Assembly: GCA_937873695.1 (NCBI GenBank)
Contig: CALMYL010000012.1
Span: 1 to 64,000 of the forward strand
Direction: 5' to 3'
DNA from: an uncultured Ignavibacteria bacterium
GTDB lineage: Bacteria > Bacteroidota > Ignavibacteria > Tepidaquicellales > OLB5
Length of the DNA: 64,000 nucleotides
The position numbers and the translations under genes are program-made. The notes beneath the pieces are model-generated. The model saw only the letters and a program-made list of their open reading frames with translations, searched no databases and was not told the DNA's origin. Each line of letters opens with the position of its first letter. The stretch's first letter is position 1. Positions 2,843 to 47,794 of the stretch are shown here, piece after piece.

Positions 2843-3319
2843 ATGGCAAAAGAAAAGAAGAAGAGTTCCGGCAAATCACAAAAAAAAGTTTCGGGCAGAA
2901 TTGCAGTTGTTGTAAGCCGCTTTAACGAAGAAGTTACCGGCGGTTTGCTGCAGGGAGCGTTGAGCATTCTGCGTGAAAATAAATATGCTGATAAAAATGT
3001 TACTGTCATTCACGTTCCGGGTGCATATGAAATCCCCCTGACAGCTAAACACCTCTGTATGAGCGGAAAGTACTGCGGAGTAATCTGTCTTGGTGCCGTG
3101 ATAAAAGGAGAGACAGCGCACTTTGAGTATATCTCAAATGCCGTATCAAACGGTATAATGTCACTTAATCTGGAATACAGCATGCCGGTTTCTTTTGGTG
3201 TACTCACATGTTATACCGATGAGCAGGCATTAAAACGCTCTCAAAACGATGAGCATAACAAAGGACGCGAAGCGGCATCGGCAGTTTTGGATATGATCAG
3301 AATTCTAAAAGAGATATAG
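2843..3319 (+). CDS. ribH: 6,7-dimethyl-8-ribityllumazine synthase
   Basis: RibH condenses 5-amino-6-ribitylaminouracil with 3,4-dihydroxy-2-butanone 4-phosphate, the penultimate step of riboflavin synthesis. The 158-residue length is normal. The sequence contains the substrate-binding VVVSRFNEEVT segment, HVPGAYEIP, the phosphate-binding GAVIKGETAHFEY with the catalytic histidine, PVSFGVLT and a C-terminal NKGREAA. About the first 17 residues are a lysine/serine-rich extension (MAKEKKKSSGKSQKK). No other rib gene and no FMN riboswitch is visible nearby. It lies 1 base after the PHP gene and 10 bases before the flavoprotein gene, which would use FMN derived from riboflavin. Confidence 0.95.
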   Translation: MAKEKKKSSGKSQKKVSGRIAVVVSRFNEEVTGGLLQGALSILRENKYADKNVTVIHVPGAYEIPLTAKHLCMSGKYCGVICLGAVIKGETAHFEYISNAVSNGIMSLNLEYSMPVSFGVLTCYTDEQALKRSQNDEHNKGREAASAVLDMIRILKEI

Positions 3320-3329
3320 ATTATCCACT

Positions 3330-4280
3330 TTGAAACAAACACGTGTAAATACACTTTTCGGAATTGAGCATGCAATCATACAGGCAGGTATGGTATGGAC
3401 CTCAGGATGGAGACTTGCCTCTGCTGCATCTGAAAACGGCTGTCTAGGCTTGATTGGCGCAGGCTCAATGAAACCCGAACTCCTAAGCGAACATATCACA
3501 AAACTCCGCAATTATTTTAAAGAAAAAAATATCACAAAGCCATTTGGCGTGAATCTGCCGCTTATCAGAGGTGATATCGACGAGCTTATTAAGACCATAC
3601 TAAAAGAAGAAGTTAAAATAGTTTTTTCATCTGCCGGGAATCCAAAAGCCTTTTCAAATTTATTCAAAGATAATGGTATTACATGGGTACATGTTGTTGC
3701 GTCGGTTAAACACGCGCTGAAAGCGCAGGAAGCCGGATGTGATGCAGTTGTTGCCGAAGGCTTTGAGGCAGGCGGGCATAACGGTATTGATGAGATTACT
3801 ACTCTATGCCTCGTGCCGCAGGTTGCCGCTGCACTTAATATTCCCGTTATAGCCGCAGGAGGCATTGCAACCGGCGGACAGATCGCTGCTTGTATAGCCA
3901 TGGGTGCCGAAGGCGTACAAATAGGCACACGTTTTGCCGCAACAACTGAAGCATCAAGCAGTGAGGCTTTCAAAAATATAATCGTTGAAGCAAAAGATAG
4001 TGATACTTACCTTATAATGAAAAAACTAAACCCCGTACGTTTGTACAAAAATAAATTCGCAAATGATGTTATCAATGCTGAGAGAAGCGGAGCTTCCGCT
4101 GATGAGCTTAGGGAAATTCTTGGCCGCAAACGCGAAATGAAAGGTATTTTTGAAGGTGACCTTGATGACGGCGAGCTTGAAATGGGGCAGTCAAGCGGAC
4201 TTGTAAACGATATCCTTCCTGTTAAAATTGTTGTCCGGAATCTGTTGAAGGAGTATGAAACCGCAGTTTCTTCATTTTAA
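3330..4280 (+). CDS. Nitronate monooxygenase / FabK-like FMN-dependent oxidoreductase
   Basis: A TIM-barrel FMN enzyme of the 2-nitropropane dioxygenase (NPD) family, 316 aa. Visible motifs are IIQAGMVWTSG at the N-terminus, GVNLPL, the AEGFEAGGHNG loop around residues 144-154, and the phosphate-binding region VIAAGGIATGG followed by GAEGVQIGTRF. The family includes nitronate monooxygenases and the enoyl-ACP reductase FabK. The motif region is FabK-like, but the gene is not beside fatty-acid genes, so I leave the substrate open. Translation appears to begin at a TTG codon, because no ATG occurs before the conserved GIEHAIIQAGM. It follows ribH by 10 bases. Confidence 0.8.
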   Translation: MKQTRVNTLFGIEHAIIQAGMVWTSGWRLASAASENGCLGLIGAGSMKPELLSEHITKLRNYFKEKNITKPFGVNLPLIRGDIDELIKTILKEEVKIVFSSAGNPKAFSNLFKDNGITWVHVVASVKHALKAQEAGCDAVVAEGFEAGGHNGIDEITTLCLVPQVAAALNIPVIAAGGIATGGQIAACIAMGAEGVQIGTRFAATTEASSSEAFKNIIVEAKDSDTYLIMKKLNPVRLYKNKFANDVINAERSGASADELREILGRKREMKGIFEGDLDDGELEMGQSSGLVNDILPVKIVVRNLLKEYETAVSSF

Positions 4281-15125: not shown

Positions 15126-15579
15126 CCCGTGCCACGAATAGAATGTTCGTCCAACTTGGAAAAGTGGATTATTCTTAATTACATGTGAGTACTTTAGAAA
15201 CTAATTTCGTGGAACGAGTAAAAGGATATTGAAAGAATTGTTAAAATTTTCTCGTGCCACGAATACAGTATTCGTAAAGTATGAAAATTATGTTATTTTC
15301 AAAATAAAGGAAAGCTTATTAGAAACTAATTTCGTGGAACGAGGAAAAGGATATTGAAAGAATTGTTAAAATATTCTCGTGCCACGAATACAGTATTCAT
15401 AAAGTATGAAAATTATGTTATTTTCAATATAAAGGAAAGCTTATTAGAAACTAATTTCGTGGAACGAGGAAAAAGGAAAAAAGATATTCGTACCACAAAA
15501 TCAGTACTATGCAGAGTGTACTTAATAAGAAGCAACACCGCTTTATACTGATTATAGAAACCTGTATTTGTGGCACCAA
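15126..15579. repeat. Cluster of four 93-bp elements with 13-bp terminal inverted repeats
   Basis: Four units, each exactly 93 bp, run 15126-15218, 15251-15343, 15376-15468 and 15487-15579. Each begins with a form of CTCGTGCCACGAA and ends with a form of TTCGTGGAACGAG, its reverse complement with one mismatch. Units two and three are almost identical and, with their spacer, form a 125-bp tandem repeat (15224-15348 and 15349-15473). The first and last units are diverged inside but keep both ends and the TAGAAAC segment before the right end. A fifth unit lies at 25311-25405. No open frame is carried. They look like miniature non-autonomous elements or large hairpins. Together with promoters they account for the 670-base spacer between the aldehyde dehydrogenase and dapA. 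Confidence 0.8.
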
Positions 15580-24925: not shown

Positions 24926-25024
24926 TTAATATCTTCTCCCGATATCCTGGATAAACGCACCTTTGCGAGGAGCGAAGCGACGAAGCAATCTTATTGTAAA
25001 TGCCATTTTTTTGATGTTAATTTA

Positions 25025-25058: not shown

Positions 25059-25160
25059 ATTTTTAAGGAGAAGTCAAGCAAAAAATAATAGAATTTTTTG
25101 CAGGGAATTTACAGGGTAATTTTGAGCGGAAGAAGGAGATTCCAATATTATATTTAAGTT

Positions 25161-25264
25161 CGACCCCTAAAGGGGTCATGATTTAGCTGCGAATTTTTTT
25201 CTATAAATATGTGACCCCTCCGGGGTCAGGTAATTCACAATTAGCCCACGGCTTCAGCCGTGGG
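25161..25264. repeat. GACCCC two-hairpin unit and a CCCACGGC hairpin
   Basis: GACCCCTAAAGGGGTC (25162-25177) and TGACCCCTCCGGGGTCA (25212-25228), with a linker containing CTATAAATATG, repeat the design of 24092-24158. CCCACGGC-TTCA-GCCGTGGG (25245-25264) follows and belongs to the CTTNAG-centred family. Confidence 0.75.
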
Positions 25265-25310: not shown

Positions 25311-25405
25311 CTCGTTCCACGAAACCGGCTGCATTAATATTCACTGAATCCCTGAGTCTTCGACTTTCTGGTAAACATTATAGATACTATTATTCGTGGT
25401 ACGAG
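25311..25405. repeat. Fifth terminal-inverted-repeat element, 95 bp
   Basis: The ends CTCGTTCCACGAA (25311-25323) and TTCGTGGTACGAG (25393-25405) match those of the 93-bp elements at 15.1-15.6 kb, and TATAGATAC precedes the right end. The interior differs. Just downstream (25420-25475) is a short AT-rich run repeating ATTACTCATT. Confidence 0.75.
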
Positions 25406-47329: not shown

Positions 47330-47794
47330 TCAATCTTCAATCCATTCAAACAAATATTTCTCATCGTATTCAACTTCATATTTTCTCAACAGCTCAATAT
47401 ATTCTTCCTTAAAAGTCCTTTTCCTGTGATGTTCTTTCTGATTAATGATATAATTAATAACTTTGTCCAGTTGTGAGAGACTCACAGAAAATGCACCGAA
47501 GCCTGATTGCCAATTAAAACTATATTTTGTTAACCCTTCTTCTTTGATATAACTTGAGGATGATTTCTTAACTTCTCTAACTAAAACAGATATAGCGATG
47601 TCCGGTTTTAAACCTATCAAAAAATGAATATGATCAGGCATTCCGTTTATTCGCAGCATTTTTTGTCCCATTTTTTGTACTGTGCCTGTAATGTATTTGT
47701 AGAGTTTATCTTCCCATGATCGGTTTATGAGTGCATTTCTGCTTTTTACAGCAAAAACAATGTGAATATATAACTGTGTGAATGTATTTGGCAT
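47330..47794 (-). CDS. IS200/IS605-family Y1 transposase (RAYT-like)
   Basis: A 154-residue HUH endonuclease-type transposase. It has the strand YIHIVFAVKSRNALI, the HUH metal site GMPDHIHFLIGL (His-Ile-His) around residue 56, and a C-terminal YIINQKEHHRKRTF with the catalytic tyrosine and glutamine (YxxxQ). A tail EEYIELLRKYEVEYDEKYLFEW follows, as in Bacteroidetes family members. It nicks single-stranded DNA at hairpins. The length is complete and no frameshift is present, so it may be active. Both sides carry hairpin blocks. There is no accessory tnpB gene. Confidence 0.92.
   Translation of the reverse strand: MPNTFTQLYIHIVFAVKSRNALINRSWEDKLYKYITGTVQKMGQKMLRINGMPDHIHFLIGLKPDIAISVLVREVKKSSSSYIKEEGLTKYSFNWQSGFGAFSVSLSQLDKVINYIINQKEHHRKRTFKEEYIELLRKYEVEYDEKYLFEWIED

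Follow-up and report, generated by a model that had tools for sequence, protein, structure and literature searches.

The fixed-length elements in the window (the whole stretch of DNA that was analysed, 64,000 nucleotides) are most likely REPINs, i.e. non-autonomous doublets copied in trans by the product of a single-copy RAYT gene at G000:C6:97449-98024, a reading to which we assign a probability of about 0.88. An enzyme that recognises the ends of the elements is very probably involved. As REPINs, the elements would each consist of two inverted REP-like ends, both palindromic, and would be moved by a RAYT (TnpAREP, Y1/HUH). G000 is the genome carrying the window (3.78 Mb, 30 contigs); the comparison set comprised 59 genomes including G000, with 13 members of the same genus and 46 others.

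An earlier note on this DNA had listed five elements, four of 93 bases and one of 95, and all five were recovered where it had placed them by a covariance model of the unit. Unit 1 (15126..15218, plus strand, 93 bp, E 2.3e-11) has the left end CCCGTGCCACGAA with one mismatch (CCCGTG...) and the right end TTCGTGGAACGAG; G011, G009 and G008 carry orthologues at this position, and G002 an array. Units 2 (15251..15343, plus strand, E 4.0e-15) and 3 (15376..15468, plus strand, E 5.8e-15) are 93 bp with perfect ends, and form a tandem duplication with 97% identity and a period of 125 bases. Unit 4 (15487..15579, minus-strand match, E 1.9e-6) is decayed, with three and four mismatches in its ends TTCGTACCACAAA / TTTGTGGCACCAA, and is still 93 bp long. 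Unit 5 (25311..25405, 95 bp, minus-strand match, E 2.2e-10) is bounded by the variants CTCGTTCCACGAA / TTCGTGGTACGAG; the model gives its best fit to this unit when it is read in reverse, and the conserved tail GTATCTTTTGA comes after its right end on the minus strand. The site of unit 5 is decayed in G011 and has no recognisable element in G002, G004, G001 or G006. The ends quoted in the note are exact in units 2 and 3 only, those of units 1, 4 and 5 being mismatched or variant. With at most one mismatch allowed, the end motif occurs 11 times in the window, compared to 1.8 expected from shuffles, a count reached in none of 100 shuffles.

Other repeats were seen close to unit 5. A stretch of 30-33 bases at 24962-24994 has numerous copies with 90-100% identity in several genomes of the genus and is another dispersed repeat family, and two kinds of short hairpin at 25140-25260 (GACCCC..GGGGTC and CCCACGGCTTCAGCCGTGGG) recur in intergenic DNA of the relatives.

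A search of the whole G000 genome found 19 perfect pairs TCGTNCCACGAA...TTCGTGGNACGA. Counted from TCGT to ACGA, each is 90-95 bases long, and their interiors are for the most part unrelated. A reversed-pattern control over the same genome gave no pairs. A broad length range and a mostly unpaired motif had been named beforehand as patterns that would speak against the family, and the opposite was found in both cases. The 73 distinct pairs of the genus span 88-95 bases under a pattern that allowed 67-97 (3, 5, 8, 22, 16, 17, 1 and 1 pairs, from 88 to 95 bases), and 38 of the 45 exact motif copies in G000 lie within the 19 pairs, three more being paired with a decayed end and four partnerless. 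Such pairs are present in 10 of the 13 genus members and in none of the 46 other genomes. The constant length with a free interior, which the note had considered unusual, is real, genome-wide and maintained in evolution. Of 58 elements, 47 do not overlap an ORF of at least 100 aa by more than 20 bases, and 11 do, by a crude finder that also counts spurious ORFs. REPIN doublets in tail-to-tail arrangement, separated by about 30 bases, were observed at several loci (L087, L045 and L032) and are inherited between species.

Constant ends, a variable interior and the tandem array in the window are also features of captured-spacer arrays, whether CRISPR-like or similar to tandem guide-RNA arrays. 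This explanation is extremely improbable, given that the units are mostly dispersed, that their interiors are inherited at orthologous loci and that the associated gene is a RAYT. Tandem guide-RNA (TIGR) arrays, as presented in the part of PMC12045711 consulted, were set aside because the units are dispersed.

The anatomy of the REPINs was derived from 55 non-redundant elements after removal of 18 near-copies from the 73. The left and right end consensus sequences are TCGTGCCACGAATA and CTRATTTCGTGGMACGA, and the information content between them is close to background; ten fixed bases per end are given by the search pattern, and AATA, CTRATT and the flanks are independent of it. Each end is a short palindrome, TCGT-NCC-ACGA, with a foot that is mostly RATT and lacks the GT[AG]G tetranucleotide of canonical REPs. 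The base to the left of the element is C in 47 of 73 cases, and the right side carries a tail, RTATCTTYT, in which the second base is T in 69, the third A in 69 and the fifth C in 46 of the 73, so that a C-T step is present at both borders. Since a conserved tail is found only past the right end, the element is directional and reaches beyond its right palindrome. Base covariation between right foot and tail was assessed as a tally only. End-to-end pairing was seen in all ten folds printed, and the whole doublet is predicted to be able to form a hairpin. A hairpin-forming interior was ruled out, as the interiors of the 73 elements fold no better than dinucleotide shuffles (mean z -0.20, s.e. 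0.13).

The same features bear on two further explanations. A structured RNA family with one transcript per unit would agree with ends that could pair in RNA and with the success of a covariance model of the unit. It is highly improbable: none of the elements has an Rfam match that attains the gathering score (a tRNA is the single match of this kind in the window), the relaxed matches to RNA-OUT and mir-263 were far under threshold, the interiors lack folding beyond shuffles, and the model matches most places on both strands. The short inverted ends, together with the lack in the window of a transposase with such ends, would suit a MITE of an extinct DDE-type insertion sequence with 13-bp terminal inverted repeats; palindromic ends, the extra conserved tail at the right end, and the position of elements on both sides of a Y1 transposase gene in three species make this very unlikely.

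The observation that no transposase with matching ends is present holds for the window, but not for the genome, where a RAYT-like Y1/HUH protein of 192 aa (G000:C6:97449-98024) is encoded between two elements (C6:97336-97426 and C6:98035-98127). The protein matches NCBIfam REP_Tyr_transpos with E 1e-12 and 48 bits, below the curated cut-off of 80, and no Pfam family at E 0.001. REP_Tyr_transpos was matched by all 17 RAYTs scanned among the aligned relatives, and a profile of these 17 had the TnpAREP structure 4er8 as its sole match in the PDB (E 2e-4). G002 and G008 have orthologues with 80% and 76% identity at the same locus, likewise with elements around them; in all three genomes the gene follows a comM/YifB-like gene, the protein contains PNHFH and YIHQNP, and it is present in single copy, other matches being less than 50% identical. 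Tyr123 is its predicted catalytic residue. The RAYT, which occupies one locus in the three species, is vertically inherited, and it is under purifying selection, with dN of 0.11 and dS of about 2 between G000 and G002 and dS saturated in the two other comparisons. A tblastn search of plasmids with the RAYT gave matches that were all below 60% identity, the five listed being below 30%.

Other transposase genes were considered. The IS200/IS605 transposase gene in the window (47330-47794) shares the Y1/HUH superfamily with the RAYT and differs from it by a transpos_IS200 match above cut-off; it was rejected as the RAYT, and no ends of the REPIN family were found near it in the window. RAYT paralogues with 38-49% identity were found in G002:C12, G008:C239, G003:C293, G010:C40 and G012:C128, none of the five with an exact end motif of the REPIN family nearby. 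Two of these paralogues, L104 (G008:C239) and L105 (G002:C12), are flanked by a different palindrome, of the TCATCCGATGA family, and these palindromes with their RAYT paralogues apparently represent a second REP system. One palindrome of the TCATCCGATGA family is located in G002:C6, at the site of the C13 element of G000.

The distribution of the RAYT follows that of the elements. G000, G002 and G008 contain 19, 25 and 17 perfect pairs, compared to 0-2 in each of the ten other genus members, and an orthologue of the RAYT is present in 3/3 of the former and 0/10 of the latter (Fisher p 0.0035). The best matches in those ten were at most 48% identical, with none at E 1e-4 in four of them; for G001 and G007 the absence is weak, because these genomes are 75% and 64% complete. 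At the RAYT locus of G011, the left REPIN is kept, with a decayed right end and an interior that shares 95% identity with that in G000, and the RAYT is gone. End fragments remain at this locus in G005 and G009, only an end-like stretch, CTCGCGCCACGAAA, in G006, and no such end was seen there in G010, G012, G003 or G004.

The RAYT-less relatives keep relics of the elements. At model E 0.01, 43 distinct places, counted by hand, were detected in them (G001 3, G003 2, G005 1, G006 10, G009 4, G010 14, G011 5, G012 4, G004 0 and G007 0), 12 with perfect pairs. By comparison, 25 places were detected in G000 (19 perfect) and 31 in G008 (17 perfect), G002 being outside this count; the share of perfect pairs is therefore 36/56 in these two RAYT genomes vs 12/43 in the RAYT-less ones (p 5e-4). 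G011 is closer to G000 than G002 is (89 vs 82%, 88 vs 80% and 85 vs 79% in three regions). Elements are present in both G000 and G002 at 11 sites, i.e. ten pairs and the array between aldehyde dehydrogenase and dapA (counted once), and G011 counterparts were recognised at three of them (C4, RAYT-left and the array); its further hits are C129, which is unplaced, and C109, at a site not shared with G002. In G005 and G003 (L195 and L198), a long ORF, whose product we take to be an apparently secreted protein carrying a sorting domain at its C-terminus, lies between aldehyde dehydrogenase and dapA where others carry REPINs. A drop in REPIN numbers after RAYT loss has already been discussed in the field; here, three RAYT species with intact element populations and RAYT-less relatives with relics provide a natural experiment.

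Orthologous sites allow a direct test of why the length of REPINs is fixed, since spacer substitutions can be set against spacer indels site by site. In ten orthologous element pairs of G000 and G002, 25-26 of the 26 end bases are identical and the lengths differ by 0-1. Ungapped interior identity is 63-72% at five pairs and 36-48% at the other five (lowest at C7/C1, 36%, C27b, 36%, and RAYT-right, 42%), the latter interiors being mostly indistinguishable from shuffles (p 0.02-0.54). The RAYT and two genes next to it, comM and one for an ABC permease, show a synonymous difference of about 0.70 between the two genomes. Both ends and a length within one base are thus kept in the ten pairs at saturated synonymous divergence, even where the interior is at chance level. 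Interiors that evolve faster than their flanks, or that are swapped, were considered and not adopted: the non-coding flanks near these elements likewise show little conservation, synonymous change has reached saturation, and drift therefore explains the chance-level interiors, at which a swap may have occurred. Gap runs number 5 in nine interior windows vs 44 in eighteen 60-base flanks in the nine clearly homologous comparisons (summed by hand, with a tenth, non-independent comparison excluded and some flanks coding), a contrast biased towards ungapped interiors because homology was judged without gaps. Substitutions are tolerated; indels and changes in the ends mostly are not.

The orthologous pairs were located via intact G002 elements, an ascertainment that favours conserved ends and cannot yield ten such pairs under drift. 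Among the 19 exact G000 elements, ten have exact counterparts in G002, units 2-3 have as their counterpart an array that contains intact units, three have no recognisable counterpart and four are without assignment (C3, C6:30913, C8:125198 and C8:228534); even if these four are counted as decayed in G002, the ends are kept far beyond drift. A tentative suggestion, which we consider possible and rather doubtful, is that single REPIN sites are long maintained as RAYT-dependent functional modules, with the two ends as a docking site and the length as a molecular ruler. It draws on the ends and lengths kept at orthologous sites despite saturated synonymous divergence, and on the closer but RAYT-less G011, where only three of the eleven shared sites have a recognised counterpart.

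This conservation of ends and length while interiors drift, and the palindromic nature of each end, would also be expected of host-selected, non-mobile sites, such as paired operators or docking sites for a nucleoid protein about 80 bp apart from centre to centre. Such sites are unlikely, however, since the elements lie around the RAYT and reach high numbers only in genomes that carry it, copies that share an interior sit in unrelated surroundings, presence at one gene junction varies between species, and the 88-95 range exceeds half a helical turn.

Mobility, as required of REPINs, is supported by copies with common interiors in unrelated flanks. Two copies in G002, 289 bases apart, have 93% identical interiors, unrelated flanks and the common right tail GTATCTTTTT; a second G002 pair has 82% identical interiors, unrelated flanks and the common right tail GTATCTTTTAAGT. 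The same interior with different flanks in G002 indicates copying within the genome. A pair in G008, on different contigs, has 88% identical interiors, related left flanks and unrelated right flanks. At three gene junctions, moreover, only one of G000 and G002 carries an element: the one at G002:C13:676353-676446 is absent from the corresponding junction of the window (3319..3331), and those at G000:C21:44835 and G000:C13:100372 are absent in G002, where the counterpart of the latter site holds a different palindrome. None of these three junctions is a clean empty site with resolvable borders, because the species are too diverged, and no target-site duplication is demonstrable; to our knowledge, none is expected for Y1/HUH transposases. 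The points against the REPIN reading are a RAYT below the curated cut-off, the lack of a GT[AG]G foot, interiors that fold no better than shuffles and the lack of a clean empty site.

A mechanism can be proposed from the sequences. The two ends would fold and pair into one hairpin while the DNA is single-stranded, probably as the lagging-strand template. The RAYT would bind the ends and cut at the C-T step immediately beyond the left end (YC|TCGTG), then again about 5 bases past the right end (GTATC|TT), cuts that are placed at the borders because C-T steps occur there and TnpAREP is reported to cleave C|T next to a hairpin in the available part of PMC8266576. The copy would then be joined elsewhere in the genome. 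If recognition involves only the ends, the right tail and the distance between them, interior substitutions would drift, and indels and end mutations would be purged. The enzyme may itself measure the distance, one of the two possibilities raised in the note. The strand, the cut sites, the copying step and the cause of the length limit are all inferred.

Other RAYT loci point in the same direction. The best 80 of 414 RAYT loci found, mostly from Bacteroidota, were compared. Repeated inverted pairs lie within 700 bases of the gene in 36 of these 80 named loci, vs 3 of 80 in shuffles. Under a stricter definition, the same end pair occurs both upstream and downstream in 15 of the 80, vs none in three shuffled runs; both searches used default gene coordinates for most loci. 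Spans differ by at most 2 bases in 9 of the 15 (e.g. 91/91, 76/76, 66/65 and 98/100) and by 9-64 in the other 6, and the end sequences differ from taxon to taxon. From these matched gene flanks, fixed length seems to be characteristic of the group, at a value that differs from system to system. Both motifs were located in 71 of the 80 relatives, as PNHFH in 71 and YIH[QN]NP in 62, and the HuH-Y distance is 69 in the G000 RAYT and 62-120 (median 78) in those 71.

By these motifs the RAYT appears nearest to TnpAREP subclass 2.6 (Bertels group 5). It shares with the subclass, as described in the consulted part of PMC6006769, the YIH[QN]NP motif, relatives mostly in Bacteroidetes, and gene flanks with atypical non-GT[AG]G structures that recur at other genomic positions; it differs in having NHFH rather than NH[LIV]H and a HuH-Y distance of 69 rather than a median of 82. 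That source reports the atypical non-GT[AG]G structures of subclass 2.6 mostly from Bacteroidetes, and in the literature searched, supplementary files excluded, neither the anatomy nor the length of these elements was found described.

Variable REPIN spacers and the importance of their length are already published. The spacer is described as short and highly diverse in the part of PMC8049555 consulted, where RAYT loss is left as an extension of the model. In Pseudomonas fluorescens SBW25, REPINs are doublets at a fixed distance, 71 or 110 bp, and what seems critical is how long the spacer is and whether a hairpin can form (Bertels and Rainey 2011, PMC3116915, in the sections consulted). According to the same sections, the present elements resemble SBW25 REPINs in their inverted REP ends, less conserved spacer, tandem clusters that include flanks, and clusters beside the RAYT. 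They differ in their tens rather than hundreds of copies, the lack of a GTAG foot, asymmetric ends with a conserved right tail, and a spacer without folding beyond chance, whereas Pseudomonas spacers are reported there to form hairpins. With BIMEs or REP-iREP pairs of E. coli they share inverted REP pairs and a variable linker; unlike in the E. coli TnpAREP system, as far as covered by the consulted part of PMC8266576, cleavage is inferred here and a guide GTAG is lacking. The end anatomy with its conserved right tail, the natural experiment of RAYT loss, and the pairs of matched length next to the RAYTs of other genomes, most of them Bacteroidota, are new. The REPIN-RAYT work cited concerns chiefly gammaproteobacteria, and the elements described here, from another genus, represent an unusually clear case within a known system, in one of its branches that has received little study.
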